A stretch of DNA of 64,000 nucleotides, from the NCBI RefSeq assembly GCF_021608225.1, contig NZ_JAKIJS010000001.1:1674001-1738000 (forward strand), written 5' to 3'. The notes beneath the pieces are model-generated. The model was not told where the DNA came from. It saw only the letters and a program-made list of their open reading frames with translations, and ran no database searches. Source of the stretch: Pseudalkalibacillus berkeleyi. Its GTDB lineage: Bacteria; Bacillota; Bacilli; Bacillales; Fictibacillaceae. This document shows positions 5,156 through 56,800 of the stretch, in pieces (position 1 is the first letter of the stretch; each line of letters starts with the position of its first letter). Both the position numbers and the translations under genes were made by a program.

Positions 5156-5336
5156 TTGTTCCACTCCTTAAAATTGTCTACGATTAGAATTATTATATCA
5201 TAAATGATCACACCTAAAACGCTTCCAATATTATTACCTATTTATGGGAGCTGGTGCTAATCCGTATATATCATATCATATCCAGCTTAATGAGGACAGT
5301 TATACTAACATGATATCAAAAACATAGTGATGATAA

Positions 5337-5380
5337 AATAAAAATAAGACCAAGTAGCAATTTGCTTCTACTTGACCTTA
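5337..5380 (-). terminator. Intrinsic terminator of the spoIIIA operon
   Basis: On the minus strand a CAAGTAG/CTACTTG stem (arms 5368-5374 and 5351-5357), extended by TAAG/CTTA across a small bulge, is followed by a T-rich run (5344-5337). It lies 50 nt after the spoIIIAH stop and isolates the sporulation operon from accB. Confidence 0.8.
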
Positions 5381-5431
5381 TTTCATACGATGGACACAGT
5401 CAGTCCAACATTTCGTTATCGTTTTGGGGTA

Positions 5432-5974
5432 TTAATTCTTTGCTGTATGGAATTGTACAGCTACTTGTTTGTCACCTAGTTGTTCTTTCGCTTTTCGCAT
5501 GATTGCATTCGCTTCTTCACCGGAAAGCTTTTCCTCAACTCTGACGATGATCGTTACTTCCTTACCCATCGTGTTTACGAGCACATCCTCGTACCCCATA
5601 CTTTTAATTAACGTTTCAAGTGTGCTTTCTTTCATACCTAGTTCTTGAAGTGCCGTTAGTTTGTCTAATGCTTCCGACTGAACTTCAGCTGCTACACTCG
5701 TATTTGCAATCACTTGATCATACTGGTGCGCTAGCTTTGAACGCTGCTCATCCATTTTCATTCGAAGTTCCATAAATAGTTCGTCACTGTCAATCTGAGT
5801 AACAGATGGACCCTCTACACCATCTTGAGCACCATTCTTACTGGCTTCCTGTCCTTCCTGTTGTTTAGCAAGATCTGTTGGTGATTGCTCTGGGCTCGTA
5901 ATGTAATAAACAGACAGCACAATGATCAAACTCAACATCGTTAACAACCATACCGTTTGCTTCTTTAATAACAT
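5432..5974 (-). CDS. spoIIIAH: Stage III sporulation protein AH
   Basis: SpoIIIAH is made in the mother cell and pairs with forespore SpoIIQ, zipping the engulfing membranes and forming the intercellular channel. The 180-residue protein has one N-terminal membrane anchor (about 8-27, VWLLTMLSLIIVLSVYYI). An acidic linker follows, and then the YscJ/FliF-like ring-building domain (about 60-175, ending VTIIVRVEEKLSGEEANAIM). It is the last gene of the operon, 2 nt from spoIIIAG. Length and architecture match the family, with no visible defect. Confidence 0.95.
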   Translation of the reverse strand: MLLKKQTVWLLTMLSLIIVLSVYYITSPEQSPTDLAKQQEGQEASKNGAQDGVEGPSVTQIDSDELFMELRMKMDEQRSKLAHQYDQVIANTSVAAEVQSEALDKLTALQELGMKESTLETLIKSMGYEDVLVNTMGKEVTIIVRVEEKLSGEEANAIMRKAKEQLGDKQVAVQFHTAKN

Positions 5975-18321: not shown

Positions 18322-19440
18322 TTAAATTCCACACTTCAACTGAGCATTACAGTTTGTACATGTGTTACAACCACCAATTTCTTTCACTTGTCCTTTTCTA
18401 CATACTGGGCAAGTGTTGCCTACTTCATTTCCAATCGTGACGTCTGTTGAGCGAAGGTCTGCGATCGTATCGACGAGAACAACTTTTTGACGTTCTTCTT
18501 TTTGCGTTGCCTCAGTTTCATCAAATGTATTTTCTTCTGCACTAAGCGTTAACACTTGAGAGTCGCGACTTCCATCCACATAAACGGTACCACCTTTAGC
18601 ACCACCGTTATATAAGCGTTCATAAACACCTTGAACTTGTTCCACTGTATATCCTTTTGGAGCATTTACCGTCTTACTGATTGAACTATCGATCCATTTT
18701 TGAATAACACATTGTGTATCAGCATGAGCTTCTGGAGACAGTTCCATAGCAGAAACGAACCATTCCGGTAGGTTTTCAGCGTCAGCATTTTCGTTTCTAG
18801 ATACGTAATCGTTCACAATATCTGCTTTCACTTCAATAAACTTACCAAGTCGTCCACTTCTAAAGTAAGAGAACGAGAAGTAAGGCTCAAGCCCAGTACT
18901 CACGCCAACCATAGTTCCAGTTGATCCTGTGGGAGCTACAGTCAACAAGTGAGAGTTACGAATACCGTGTTGAAGGATACCTTCTCGAATATCTTCAGGC
19001 ATCTTTTTCATGTATCCTGTATTGATAAACGCTTCACGGAGTTCTCTTGTTTCTTTTTCCGTTTTTCCTTCTAAAAATGGAAAGCTTCCTTTTTCTTTCG
19101 CTAATTCAATCGACTCACGATAGGCAGTTGTCGCCATCGTTTCGAAGATCTCATCAACCAATTTGTTACCTTCCTCAGATCCATATTTCGTCTCACAGTA
19201 AATGAGTAAGTCATGAAGACCCATAACACCTAATCCGACACGTCGTTCTCCAAGAGCTTGAACTCGATTATCTTCTAGGAAATATGGCGTAGCATCTATA
19301 ACGTTATCCTGCATTCTAACACCAGTGCGAACGGTTTGTTTCAGCTTATCGAAGTCTACCTGTTTCGTTTCTTTGTCAGCAACATTGGCTAGGTTGACGG
19401 CAGCTAAGTTACAAACAGAATAAGGTGCGAGCGGTTGTTC
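18322..19440 (-). CDS. nrdJ: nrdJ exon 4 (C-terminal part)
   Basis: This exon encodes residues 482-853, starting EQPLAPYSVCNLAAVNLA. It holds catalytic Glu482 and redox Cys491, the block TVAPTGSTGTM that contacts substrate phosphate, and the C-terminal cysteine relay that passes electrons from thioredoxin. As an isolated reading frame it would begin at a TTG inside the intron end, so gene callers may report it as a separate truncated protein starting at 19443. Confidence 0.93.
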   Translation of the reverse strand, partial: EQPLAPYSVCNLAAVNLANVADKETKQVDFDKLKQTVRTGVRMQDNVIDATPYFLEDNRVQALGERRVGLGVMGLHDLLIYCETKYGSEEGNKLVDEIFETMATTAYRESIELAKEKGSFPFLEGKTEKETRELREAFINTGYMKKMPEDIREGILQHGIRNSHLLTVAPTGSTGTMVGVSTGLEPYFSFSYFRSGRLGKFIEVKADIVNDYVSRNENADAENLPEWFVSAMELSPEAHADTQCVIQKWIDSSISKTVNAPKGYTVEQVQGVYERLYNGGAKGGTVYVDGSRDSQVLTLSAEENTFDETEATQKEERQKVVLVDTIADLRSTDVTIGNEVGNTCPVCRKGQVKEIGGCNTCTNCNAQLKCGI

Positions 19441-22400
19441 CAATTTTGTTATCCTACCGGCTTTTTATCCGATAGTTCTTACAGTTGTATTCCTGTAAGT
19501 TCAGCATACCTTTTCATCACAAACACTTTTCATAAACTTCAGAAGTTCTTTTCTACCTTTATCTTCTCCAAAAACAGCTTTTGAGATTATCCTATAGTCC
19601 TTTACTCCATATTGTTTTTGGATAGTATCTGTTAACGGTTTAATAGTGGAATTGATTTTGTTTAACGGTGTTCCTAGAATTAAGTCTTTATTATCCTTAG
19701 ACCACTGAATAACGTATTGTTTAATTCGATAGTGCACTTGTTTTCGTTTATTAACGTATGTTTCTGTAGCAAGTTTTATAGCTACATTTCCAGAACAAGT
19801 ACGACTGCAAAATTTATTTTGAGCGGTTACGATAACATTAAAAGGTCTTTTACAAAGTTGACAGATTCTCGTTTCCCTAGGCTTTTTTAATTTACCTTTC
19901 TGTACCAACCCTGTTTTTCTTAAACCTTCTATCATCTTTTGTTTAGCGATACTATCAGAAGCCCACAATTTTTTAGTATGGTTACCAATTTCTCTTTTTG
20001 TCTTTTCATTATGCTTTAAATTGTAGTGACCATTCAACTTACCAACAGCAACTTTATTAACCGTGGTATCTTTGGAGTTTATCCATTCGGTTATTACTGA
20101 ATTTAATGAAATTGGCATTACTTTGTATAATTGTAGAAGCTCTTCATATGATATTAATTCCCACTCTAAAGAGTTTAGCAGTCCTATGGTTCTTAAAGCT
20201 TTTCTTGCTCTTTTCTTTTCTTCTTCGTTTCTTGATTTAATCTCCACTATTTTATTTAATACACCGTTTTTATTATAGAAAAAAAAGTCTGGTTTATAAA
20301 TGCGGTAACCAATGTCATATACATCGTCTTCATAACTCCATTGAATAGAATGGTGATCAAGATATTTGGCATATGCGTATTCGTAGGAACTTCTTAAATA
20401 GTATCCTTTGTAAAAGCCCGCATACCCTCTATTCATGAACACCCACCTCTAATTCAATTTGTTAAAAAGACCTTTAAATCGTATTTGGTTTGTGATGTTG
20501 CGGTCTCGTGGGCAGGTTATATTCTCTTTCGAGGTTCACTGCCTATGCGTTGCCCCTGACTAAGGCTTTACCCTTAGCCTTCGGTTCGGATTCCCATCTC
20601 AGGGTTCCCGCTTTATCCCGCAATTTTTTACGTGAGGCAAATCAAGCTGCTCTACCACACGGATTCGTTGCTACTACTTTCTGTCCATATGCTTTTGCGT
20701 TTGTCATTTCGTTTGCATTATCGATAAAGAAAATGCCTGGTTCTGCTGAGTATGTTGCACAAATGTTGATCAGGTTCCATAGTTCACGTGCTTTCACACG
20801 CTTGTAAACACGGATCCCATACCCTTTCGCTTCCCATTCACGAACGTCACCACATTCTTGCCACTTGTTGTTATACTCAAGCATCTCTTCAAACGTGTAG
20901 TTTTCTACATCAGGGAAACGAAGTTCATACTCTTCGTCGTTCTCGACTGCTTCCATGAATTCTTTGGTCACACATACCGAAATATTTGCCCCAGTTAAAA
21001 ATTCTGGATTATGAACACTATATGTTCCACCTACACGAAGTTTTTCTTCTGCTTCTTTAATTGCCTTGTCAGTAAATCCACCTTGACCTGGGATACTCTT
21101 ATAATTGACGATACCTTGATACATCGTTTGTTCCGTCTCAGTAAGAGGAGTAAATTTCAATTTATCAAGAGCTAATTGTTTAATTCGATCGTCCGTAGTC
21201 GTTTCAACTAAGAATCTAAGAATTCTCGGATTTTGCATTTTTGAAATGATGAATTCAATAATGTCTGGATGCCACGTTTATACCGTCCTTTTCAGGATAC
21301 TTAAACTCTGCTAAAAGCAGACGGTCTAGACTATATCATCACCCTCAGCATGACCTGTTAGGGGCCGGGCGCTTCGAGGATCTAACTCCCCTACTCTACT
21401 CGCTTACAATCTTGTAAGTTTTCGATAGTCGTTGAACCTTCACCTGATTAGGTGCTTGGCTGCTGATTGTCCAATCCGATCAATTTTTAAAGCATTCACG
21501 CTCACCGTTCCCAGTCACGTTGTAGCTTGATCGTCTCTAAGGATTTTTCAGCAATTCACCCGATTTTCTAGTCATTCATTGTCTGAATGACGCGGACTAG
21601 AATTAATCCGCCAGCATAATCATTTGAGCTCCACGCTGTTTGTTACGCACTCCATATTGAGTGGGTGTGGTCATTTCTGCCACACTCTCATGCTTTCACA
21701 TGAGATCAGACTATATCATCAAAGAAGAAAATTCATATTAATTCGCTATTTTCTACTTTGTCTCGTGCCTCATAACCACGTTGCCGCTTGTTATGATTTA
21801 CTTCTTCCTTAATTTCCATTTACATTCCTCCATGTTTTAGGAAACCTTAGGAAGTTTTAATAGTCGTTGAACGTTTATCTCAGTTTCCTAAGATACTTCG
21901 CTGCTGATTGCCCATTGTTTTATCCTTGAAATTTTTGAGCATTCACGTTCGCCGTTTCCGGCCGCGTTGTAGCTTTCAAGGCTTTAGGGTGTTCCAGCAA
22001 TTCACGAGATTTTATTCCCGCCGATTGGAGCCATTTAACGGGATCCACCTTGTTCTACAAGGTGCGTTAACTTCGCAATGTCATCTAGCCATGATACAGA
22101 CCCTGATGATTTTCCGTTCACGCCTTTTGCAAGTGTGTTCCTTGGTCGTAATGTTGATCCGTTCGTCCCAACACCACCACCGCGACTCATGATTTCCATC
22201 ACTTGCTTCCGGTGGTCTGAGATACCTTCTCTAGAATCTTGAACGAAAGGCATTACATAACAATTGAAGTAGGTGACCTCAGTACCTGCACCGGCACCGT
22301 ATAATACTCGTCCAGCTGGAACGAAGTTTAAATTAACTAGCTCATGGTAGAATTTTTCGAAGGATTCTTGCTTTCTTTCCTCAGTTTCTTCCACTTCCGC

Positions 22401-22829
22401 AAGACCTGTCGCATTCCGTTTAGCAATTTGCTCATAATATATTTCTAATGGCTTATCAATCGTATCAAGAGGTCGTTTAACTATTCCTGTCTTCACTTCC
22501 TCTGGTTTATCAAGTACACCTCGATAATCCTCGTCTACTTTCACTTCCGCCATCTTCTTTTCTTGATCAATGGAAACGATGAATCCGACACCTCTAGCTG
22601 GAAACTTCGGGTCGTCTTTGACCGTCAGTACAACAAAGTCTCCTACCTTTAAAGTCCTTTTCTCAGTATCCTTGAAAGAATACCGATCCAACATGACCAA
22701 TCTCGATACACCTTTGTGTGTCGTATGCATGTCCGATGTGATCGGATGCACCTGTTCAAATTTCGCAATATCGTCATTCAACTGGTCTATGTTGATATGA
22801 TGTCGTTGCTCCCCTGTTACAATCGCCAT
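18322..22829 (-). CDS. nrdJ: B12-dependent (class II) ribonucleotide reductase, gene split by three group I introns
   Basis: NrdJ reduces ribonucleotides to deoxyribonucleotides with adenosylcobalamin as radical source, independently of oxygen. Four exons join in frame: 22829-22038, 21635-21606, 21274-20654 and 19440-18322, giving 853 residues, a normal length. Joining restores the class II sequence GGSR-RGAQMIMLAD-WHPD and NPCG-EQPL. Key residues are redox Cys190 and Cys491, thiyl-radical Cys480 (NPC), Glu482, and a C-terminal cysteine cluster (CPVC, CNTCTNC). Each break shows group I hallmarks: the exon ends in T, the intron ends in G, and a guide sequence pairs with the 5' exon. Inference: it is functional only after RNA splicing. 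A pseudogene is unlikely because every exon is intact. Confidence 0.93.
19441..20653 (-). ncRNA. Group I intron C in nrdJ, carrying a homing endonuclease gene
   Basis: This 1213-nt intron interrupts nrdJ between the codons for Gly481 and Glu482. The 5' exon ends GTGTGGT, and GCCTCAC about 12 nt into the intron can pair with it, with a U-G pair at the splice site and one U-U mismatch. The last base is G. By eye, P3 (TTGCGG with CCGCAA), P4 (CGGG with TCCG) and P7 (AGACC with GGTCT) can form before the endonuclease gene, placing that gene in the P9 region. Two hairpins (CTTACAG/CTGTAAG and CTATCGG/CCGGTAG) close the 3' end. The core type is uncertain, and it is unlike introns A and B. Confidence 0.85.
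19501..20436 (-). CDS. Intron-encoded PD-(D/E)XK homing endonuclease
   Basis: This is likely the enzyme that spreads intron C by cutting intronless nrdJ. The start ATG at 20436 follows GAGGTGG by 6 nt; a GTG lies two codons upstream. Of 311 residues, the first 70 hold a PD-(D/E)XK-type active site: Glu19 in SSYEYAYAKYL, Asp50 in YKPDFFFYN, and Glu65-x-Lys67 in VEIKS. Around residues 190-215 CQLC and CSRTC form a probable zinc finger, followed by a basic DNA-binding tail. It is not of the LAGLIDADG, HNH or GIY-YIG types. The family resembles the Vsr-like I-Bth0305I group found in Bacillus phage introns, but that exact kinship is inference. It is intact. Confidence 0.8.
   Translation of the reverse strand: MNRGYAGFYKGYYLRSSYEYAYAKYLDHHSIQWSYEDDVYDIGYRIYKPDFFFYNKNGVLNKIVEIKSRNEEEKKRARKALRTIGLLNSLEWELISYEELLQLYKVMPISLNSVITEWINSKDTTVNKVAVGKLNGHYNLKHNEKTKREIGNHTKKLWASDSIAKQKMIEGLRKTGLVQKGKLKKPRETRICQLCKRPFNVIVTAQNKFCSRTCSGNVAIKLATETYVNKRKQVHYRIKQYVIQWSKDNKDLILGTPLNKINSTIKPLTDTIQKQYGVKDYRIISKAVFGEDKGRKELLKFMKSVCDEKVC
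20654..21274 (-). CDS. nrdJ: nrdJ exon 3 (central catalytic part)
   Basis: This exon encodes residues 275-481, from WHPDIIEFI through the barrel to VVATNPCG. It ends one codon after the thiyl-radical cysteine (Cys480), so the active-site loop NPCGE is assembled only by splicing intron C. Its 207 codons run without a stop. An ORF finder would begin it at the internal ATG at 21238 and end it in the intron at 20642. Confidence 0.93.
21275..21605 (-). ncRNA. Group I intron B in nrdJ (331 nt, no ORF)
   Basis: This intron sits between the codons for Asp274 and Trp275. The 5' exon ends GCGGAT and pairs with GTCCGC 9 nt into the intron (six pairs, U-G at the splice site). The intron ends in G before TGGCAT. 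Core elements are readable: P element AATTGCTGAAAAA, Q element AATCAGCAGCCAAG, R element GTTCAACGACTA (21437-21423) and S element GATATAGTC (21337-21328). This is a canonical small group I intron. The P8/P9 segments are GC-rich and fold locally. Much of the core matches intron A. Confidence 0.93.
21606..21635 (-). CDS. nrdJ: nrdJ exon 2, a 30-nt micro-exon
   Basis: Ten codons reading RGAQMIMLAD, the exact class II reductase sequence that must join GGSR and WHPD. It lies between intron A (ending in G at 21636) and intron B (starting at 21605). Its last bases GCGGAT are the guide target for intron B. There is no stop, and the frame is kept across both junctions. Confidence 0.93.
21636..22037 (-). 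ncRNA. Group I intron A in nrdJ (402 nt)
   Basis: This intron sits between the codons for Arg264 and Arg265. The 5' exon ends TCCCGT and pairs perfectly with GCGGGA about 15 nt into the intron, with U-G at the splice site; the final base is G. Core elements: P AATTGCTGGAA, Q AATCAGCAGCGAAG, R GTTCAACGACTATT (21874-21861), S GATATAGTCTGATC (21717-21704). A 28-codon remnant reading frame (21733-21819) lies between R and S, in the P8 region, a usual site for intron ORFs. Confidence 0.93.
21733..21819 (-). CDS. Short ORF inside intron A, possible endonuclease-gene remnant
   Basis: A 28-codon frame starts at ATG 21819, 7 nt behind GGAGG, and reads MEIKEEVNHNKRQRGYEARD before a stop at 21733. The good ribosome site and position in P8 suggest the start of a former intron-encoded endonuclease whose body was deleted. 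The peptide is charged and matches no domain I recognise. It may simply not be functional. Confidence 0.4.
   Translation of the reverse strand: MEIKEEVNHNKRQRGYEARDKVENSELI
22038..22829 (-). CDS. nrdJ: nrdJ exon 1 (N-terminal part)
   Basis: This exon encodes residues 1-264, starting MAIVTGEQRH at ATG 22829 behind AAGGAGGA. Residues 40-110 form the N-terminal extension seen in Bacillus class II reductases. GRVLYGAGAGTEVTYFNCYV carries redox Cys190, and RGGGVGTNGSTLRPR follows. It ends HLVEQGGSR; the next codon is a TAA that belongs to intron A, so an unspliced message would stop here. Confidence 0.93.
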
Positions 22830-29434: not shown

Positions 29435-29600
29435 TTGTACCTGAAAGTTTATCGTAGTAAATCAATATACTACGAATGTCCCCGTTGGTGGCCCATTAAA
29501 TGGACACTCTCCAGAGCTGCGTCTAACAAGAGTCCATTTGCCTGAGAGATTCGTATACACTTGCTCCTTCGGCGCTACTATCGAAGTAGACTCTCCCCTT
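29431..29600 (-). ncRNA. Tandem glycine riboswitch
   Basis: Two gcvT-type aptamers lie in series on the minus strand. The first runs from GGGGAGAG (29598-29591) through CGCCGAAGGAGCAAG to CTCTCAGGCAAA. The second starts CTGGAGAGTGTCC (about 29515), contains CACCAACGGGG and ends with CTTTCAGGTACAAGG. Both conserved cores are intact. This class senses glycine and, in Bacillus, turns on the glycine cleavage operon. The 260 nt beyond it (29601-29858) contain the divergent promoters of gcvT and yqhH but no gene. Confidence 0.93.
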
Positions 29601-29858
29601 GTTATCACTCGCCTCTATGTAATTAAAAGAACTATTAAGCGTGTCTTCTAAGATCAAATCAATCGCAACTATTATATTTCTATGTTTGCTTGTTCATACT
29701 AAGTATGAAACTAGTTCTATATTATCATCGAACGACGTAAATTGACAATTATCTTTTCAATGAAAGCGTTATATTCATCACATTTAACGAACAATGCCCA
29801 ATCTCTTATTTCAATTGTTCGTCATTCATACTATTTTTCTCTAGAAAGGGTTTTCGAT

Positions 29859-56584: not shown

Positions 56585-56800
56585 AAACTGTCAACACTAA
56601 CACAGGGGCGATTGAATCGCGGTACCACCCTGCTTGATGTGTTTAACAGCATCTTCTCTACATAGATAAAGGTATGTGACCGATTAAGCTCCACGAATGT
56701 AATTTCGTCTAACCTCTTCCTTAGCTTCCACCAGCCGCCAAGTCTCTAATGTTTGAAGAAATCGACTACTCATTTCGCTTCAACGCTTTTGTGCTTTTGT
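56585..56800 (-). ncRNA. T-box riboswitch upstream of the NhaC-family gene
   Basis: The conserved T-box AGGGTGGTACCGCG lies at 56631-56618 on the minus strand. Upstream are stem I elements (ATGAGTAG, AGAGA, GGCTGGTGG), a hairpin GACGAA-ATTACA-TTCGT, and stem III ACATA/TATGT. Downstream the terminator pairs CTGTTAAACACA...CAGGG with CCCCTG...GTGTTGACAG and ends in eight T. The likely specifier loop reads AATTACATT: UAC (Tyr) followed by A is my preferred reading, AUU (Ile) an alternative. Such leaders read through when the matching tRNA is uncharged. Confidence 0.9.

Follow-up and report, generated by a model that had tools for sequence, protein, structure and literature searches.

Results

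A class II ribonucleotide reductase gene in four exons

The window analysed here is a stretch of 64,000 nucleotides from the chromosome of Pseudalkalibacillus berkeleyi. On its minus strand, from position 22829 to 18322, lies nrdJ, a class II ribonucleotide reductase gene with three introns, A, B and C, inside it. Exon 1 (22038..22829) has 264 codons, exon 2 (21606..21635) is a micro-exon of 30 nt encoding RGAQMIMLAD, exon 3 (20654..21274) has 207 codons with the NPCG motif at its end, and exon 4 (18322..19440) has 372 codons and a stop. Scanned unjoined, exons 1, 3 and 4 matched consecutive parts of the NF005991 family (B12-dependent RNR, length 858), namely positions 3-263, 274-480 and 481-858, with 491, 393 and 732 bits; the cut-off of 854 bits applies to the whole protein and the exons were scanned singly. 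Since the exons were matched before they were joined, the in-frame joins are independent of the joining itself. Together the four exons form 853 codons and a stop, in frame, with no stop codon or frameshift across the joined codons and with phase 0 at every junction. The sequence-only reading of this DNA had proposed four exons giving an 853-residue class II reductase, which the in-frame join and the NF005991 matches bear out; its exon and intron coordinates were exact. The same ten-codon exon 2 was present in 6 of the 80 best relatives among at least 581 nrdJ loci.

The NPCGE motif of the joined protein aligned with that of the Thermotoga maritima enzyme (1XJE), and we classify the protein as a class II (B12-dependent) reductase. 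Counted by hand in 1XJE numbering, the insertion site of intron C falls between G323 and E324, adjoining C322, and that of intron A between R207 and R208. We take C322 to be the radical cysteine and site A to be the edge of the specificity loop.

Introns A and B match the Rfam group I model

Intron A (21636..22037, minus strand, 402 nt) and intron B (21275..21605, minus strand, 331 nt) were found with the Rfam group I model RF00028 at 75.7 and 62.8 bits, both above its gathering score of 50. The guide GCGGGA of intron A (22021-22016) pairs with the exon end TCCCGT, and the guide GTCCGC of intron B (21597-21592) pairs with GCGGAT. P7 is GACUA/UAGUC in both. The first codon of intron A is a stop (TAA), and an in-frame stop at intron codon 1 occurs in all 12 A introns and all 15 B introns of the window and its relatives. 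Intron B is without an endonuclease gene, its longest open stretch being 27 codons. No intact LAGLIDADG gene was found in intron A of the window, where only a fossil N-terminus was detected: the start of a LAGLIDADG homing endonuclease (21733..21819, minus strand) runs for 28 codons to a stop, overlaps the ribozyme core and shows 79% identity over 19 amino acids to the endonuclease of locus L011 (E 1.7e-6). Over half of its length, the core of intron B shares 82% identity with a stretch of Bacillus phage vB_BpuM-BpSp, and intron A also has phage matches.

Covariation and a held-out model identify intron C

Intron C (19441..20653, minus strand, 1213 nt) was missed by RF00028, which gave no match to it at E up to 1. 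The sequence-only reading had named an Rfam intron search as a check on all three introns; this search detected A and B, and a model of its own was needed for C. The nuclease-free C introns of relatives were likewise missed by RF00028 in 5 of 5 cases at E up to 5, whereas all four A and B introns scanned in those loci were found; membership in RF00028 reflects the reach of one model and is not a property of the ribozyme class. Read from the sequence, the guide GCCTCACG lies at 20638-20631, P3 at 20623-20618 / 20503-20498 and P7 at 20548-20544 (GCATA) / 19508-19504 (TATGC). The guides of the earlier reading are all present, the third pairing having an internal U.U mismatch.

We aligned 13 C introns (alignment A2). 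L026_C and L031_C were omitted because they nearly duplicate L025_C, and L046_C because it is a distinct intron. In a hand-built P1-P9 core of 66 pairs, 97.3% of the cells were paired. Double changes occurred in 33 of the 66 pairs vs 18.0 in shuffled alignments, and none of 500 shuffles reached any of the five covariation measures. Sliding the alignment by 1-3 columns lowered pairing to 31-39%, a control that favours the structure because the structure was drawn from the same sequences. The core includes pseudoknotted P3 and P7, with helices P3-P9 and the guanosine site in P7 in place. P7 is GCAUA/UAUGC with a bulged base, in contrast to GACUA/UAGUC in A and B, and in 2 of the 13 introns the bulge changes and, with it, the flanking pair, from A-U to G-C.

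A model, R1, was built from 7 of the 8 nuclease-free C-lineage introns of relatives (L043_C was left out) and contained no window sequence. It matched both halves of intron C, with 180.5 bits (E 1.4e-53) and 58.8 bits, and nothing else in the window's genome at E up to 1. The earlier proposal that a single class II reductase gene holds three group I introns is supported, for A and B by RF00028 and for C by covariation and the held-out model.

An intron occupies site C in 15 relatives and in the window, and 15 of these 16 introns belong to one lineage. Locus L046 carries a distinct group I-like intron of 176 nt at this nrdJ site (5325-5500) with the same guide, which suggests replacement or convergence at one target.

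Introns recur at five codon positions in nrdJ of relatives

We scanned one genome per species and kept the best 80 of at least 581 confirmed nrdJ stretches. The nearest of these were from Pseudalkalibacillus salsuginis (91%, exon 4) and Bacillus sp. Marseille-Q3570 (90%). In 47 of the 80 loci the gene was open and in 32 it was interrupted; one locus, truncated by a contig end, was open across all five sites. In total, 49 introns were placed in 33 nrdJ genes (the window and the 32 relatives) at five codon positions: 12 introns at site A, 6 at site a, which lies two codons downstream of A, 15 at B and 16 at C. The intron of L035 is inserted one codon downstream of A and was counted with A in the totals, the tree and the guide test. 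Three introns each were present in the window and, among the best 80 loci, in L007 and L058. The rule stated in the sequence-only reading, that T is the last exon base and G the last intron base, holds for its three introns and for all 49 placed introns; boundaries were set from the protein frame, and for L035 the site was chosen with the T/G rules themselves.

When the carriers were mapped on an exon 4 tree, the minimum number of changes was 9 for the 12 carriers at A, 6 for the 6 at a, 11 for the 15 at B and 13 for the 16 at C; the tree has 81 rows, 29 of its 78 inner branches are weak, the change counts are without a shuffled control, and the counts for sites A and a leave out L032. Such patchy presence on the nrdJ tree is as expected of homing introns. 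Guides at site A paired on average with 6.67 of 7 bases of their own exon vs 5.08 with the exons of other alleles, the own-exon figure being favoured because each guide was picked as the best fit to its own exon. The same swap was uninformative at site B (own 5.80, swapped 5.83), weak at site C (6.06 vs 5.60) and gave no information at site a, where there is one exon allele only. In three nuclease-bearing B introns a good guide was not found in the first ~40 bases. A matched change of exon and guide was observed at site C in the relative L071.

Predicted nuclease genes differ between the insertion sites

The P8 loop of intron C holds a putative endonuclease gene (19501..20436, minus strand, 311 aa), a member of a six-member family in which PD and ExK are invariant. 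By eye, the protein has an N-terminal KPDFF...VEIKSR motif and a four-cysteine finger. Its stop codon starts on the last P7-paired base. The protein matched PHROG 21138 (function unknown) with E 1.9e-9. In Pfam no match was found for the window protein, and a weak match to PDDEXK_14 (E 0.035) was obtained for its L025 relative only; a PDB scan returned no convincing match. A phage origin of this nuclease was considered and rejected, as the viral scan gave no relative and the phage tblastn one weak match.

Open frames of more than 150 codons were present in 14 of the 49 introns. These were of the LAGLIDADG kind at A (L011, L028, L051), HNH at B (L019, L045, L048), DUF559/Vsr-like at a (L013) and PD-(D/E)XK-like at C (the window, L025, L026, L031, L035 and L067, with a shortened frame in L007). 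One member per kind was scanned against Pfam, with E 8e-11 for L011, 5e-5 for the HNH frame of L019, 6e-7 for L013 and 0.035 for L025, and the other frames were assigned by similarity. By these predicted assignments, some of the relatives' introns at each of four sites carry a nuclease kind of their own, and in the window a putative full-length nuclease gene is kept by C only, A having a fossil and B none.

Reach of the intron C lineage in Bacillales and viral contigs

R1 matched at E 0.01 or better in 74 of 397 genomes drawn from the order, and in 2 of 3 genomes of the window's genus. All of the best-scoring 30 loci listed were nrdJ genes split at residue 486/487. A further 20 R1 regions, 18 of them below 110 bits, included one nrdJ (L137), one recA (L139, genome G032, 152 bits, identified by eye) and at least three flagellin genes (L130, L131 and L138, by eye). 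The idea that R1 and RF00028 are mutually blind was rejected: an RF00028 match overlapped the R1 match in 9 of 19 second-tier loci, and R1 gave 25 bits to one intron at site a and to L046_C. The overlap means that R1 reaches other group I introns and that lineage C has no sharp limit.

A short pattern of the C core was found in at least 120 stretches of viral contigs. This set was chosen by a DNA pattern and therefore gives no frequency. In 80 of these loci R1 gave 99 matches, 92 of them distinct, with 96.2% of cells paired in an alignment fitted to R1; only the 5' strand of P7 is fixed by the pattern, and the 3' strand pairs with it in most rows. RF00028, run on 16 of these 80 loci, had no match at its threshold at any of the 19 R1 places there and found two other introns. 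One viral contig (L190, 1409-2287) has three successive R1 matches, ~34 and ~110 nt apart.

Other introns and RNA elements

Elsewhere in the same genome, RF00028 matched a group I intron with 89.2 bits in what we judge by eye to be thyA (L001, ~1511-1779, G000:C1 near 1186009), the split halves reading ...CQLYQR and SADTFLGVPF..., and another with 84.9 bits near the 3' end of a flagellin gene, also named by eye (L002, minus strand, match 1832-1501, G000:C1 near 2578400). A match of 42.6 bits, below the cut-off, lies in an apparent tmRNA gene (by eye) seemingly split in the T arm (L004, minus strand, match 1801-1501, G000:C1 near 2479062), a place at which ARAGORN found no tmRNA. Counted with those of nrdJ, the thyA, flagellin and tmRNA candidates would bring this chromosome to six introns. 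RF00028 also placed, in two further genomes of Bacillales, five introns across two tandem flagellin copies (L130, 744-3543) and three in one flagellin gene (L131, 2017-3939), the genes again being named by eye. Within the window, Rfam matches above the cut-off marked a T-box leader (56601-56792) and a glycine riboswitch (29520-29608), both on the minus strand.

Discussion

We conclude, with a probability of roughly 94%, that a functional chromosomal nrdJ is interrupted, at homing sites within conserved codons, by three group I introns that are predicted to be self-splicing. Each intron would fold so that its internal guide holds the last exon bases; a guanosine bound in P7 would then be used in a cut after the final U of the exon, and the exons would be joined after the final G of the intron, yielding the inferred 853-amino-acid class II reductase. 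Introns A, B and C probably arrived as homing elements with site-specific nuclease kinds.

A different account of why the introns persist is that they are kept as regulators of nrdJ, through growth- or cofactor-dependent splicing or through skipping of exon 2 to give an 843-amino-acid isoform. The length of exon 2 is a multiple of three and stop codons stand at or near each 5' splice site, as such regulation would have it, but the patchy presence among relatives resembles that of parasites rather than conserved regulators. By eye, the last bases of exon 1 are not matched by the guide of intron B, and skipping through choice of guide is hence not favoured; we regard a regulatory role as improbable.

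We give still less credence to the reading of nrdJ as a pseudogene, disrupted by insertions that have lost splicing, in a cell whose DNA synthesis is served by a class I enzyme. Uninterrupted matches to the large and small subunit families of class I reductase are indeed present in the genome, in which no class III reductase match was found. The class I enzyme rules out the argument that nrdJ splicing must be essential because nrdJ is the sole reductase, and essentiality of this splicing is not implied. The ribozyme cores, however, are conserved, the 853 joined codons are intact, and dN/dS of the joined protein was 0.029 and 0.031 for the window vs L007 and L008 (0.036 for L007 vs L008), values that are rough because dS is near 2 in the window pairs and exon 3 alone is saturated at silent sites. 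At a dN/dS of about 0.03 the joined protein appears to be under purifying selection, and because of this dN/dS we reject the pseudogene reading.

The least credible alternative, that intron C is an insertion of another kind, either a ribozyme of a different class or a nuclease gene that has no role as RNA, draws on the failure of RF00028 at C and its nuclease-free relatives, and is set against by the P1 and P3-P9 topology, the co-change of the P7 bulge and flanking pair that accompanies a covariation equalled in no shuffle, the U before and G at the end of the intron, the same pairs in the 92 distinct viral matches (in the alignment fitted to R1), and the RF00028-positive group I introns that R1 picks up elsewhere.

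For the preferred reading, of three self-splicing group I introns in a working nrdJ, several related systems are known; the comparisons below draw on excerpts of the cited texts. Introns are described in phage ribonucleotide reductase genes, with two in nrdE of Twort, three in nrdE of Brochothrix phage A9 and others in SPbeta nrdE (PMC3653736). The phage genes resemble nrdJ in being reductase genes with several introns at conserved sites and with homing endonucleases; unlike them, the gene here is a chromosomal class II nrdJ whose sites recur across many species. Chromosomal group I introns are reported in Bacillus recA, nrdE and flagellin genes (PMC3984707). Those hosts too are bacterial protein-coding genes, and here R1 reached recA of G032 (152 bits, by eye); the genes differ, however, and here a single gene has three introns, while its family shows insertion at five codon positions and nucleases of four kinds. 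A group I intron in a cyanobacterial ribonucleotide reductase gene (Meng et al. 2007, cited in PMC12702839 and PMC3984707) likewise sits in a bacterial reductase gene, although the organism there is a cyanobacterium and the title mentions an insertion element in the intron. The more than 100 group I introns curated from RNRdb entries (PMC2795772) similarly mark reductase genes as intron hot spots; the excerpt names no nrdJ sites, and overlap with that set is possible.

We found no report of nrdJ introns in Bacillaceae among the titles and abstract openings listed from the open-licence literature, nor in the excerpts of PMC3653736, PMC2795772 and PMC12702839. For protein genes of bacteria, one source calls group I introns less frequent (PMC3984707) and another very rarely reported (PMC4853749). 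The sequence-only reading had called three introns in one such gene unusual, which fits this literature as excerpted; it fits genomes less well, in that 32 of the 80 best relatives are interrupted (two by three introns each) and that two or three introns also occur in some flagellin genes (by eye) of Bacillales. The mechanism and the kind of element are already known, and the novelty lies in lineage C and in an nrdJ hot spot with several insertion sites.

It is possible, though we hold it to be unlikely, that intron C belongs to an undescribed and widespread group I subgroup with a GCAUA/UAUGC P7, present in many phages and in nrdJ and recA of Bacillales, which escapes RF00028 and hence the collections seeded with that model, and that genes so split are filed as frameshifted. 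The odds of this reading are lowered by the RF00028 matches that overlap R1 matches. The introns of Bastillevirinae phages fall into nine clades, mostly IA-like, and the excerpt of that study describes an incomplete Rfam model and phage introns that no longer fit within the older subgroups (PMC11878797). Lineage C is of the same phage type and could equal one of those clades. A group I database of 2025 was, by its excerpt, seeded with RF00028 (PMC11835236), so lineage C may be absent from it.

Intron C and its relatives, where tested, go undetected by the standard Rfam model, and genes that carry such introns risk being labelled 'broken'. The nrdJ family displays every stage of intron life, with empty sites and with introns that are nuclease-bearing, fossil-bearing or bare, and it provides natural replicates in which homing, loss and domestication could be tested.
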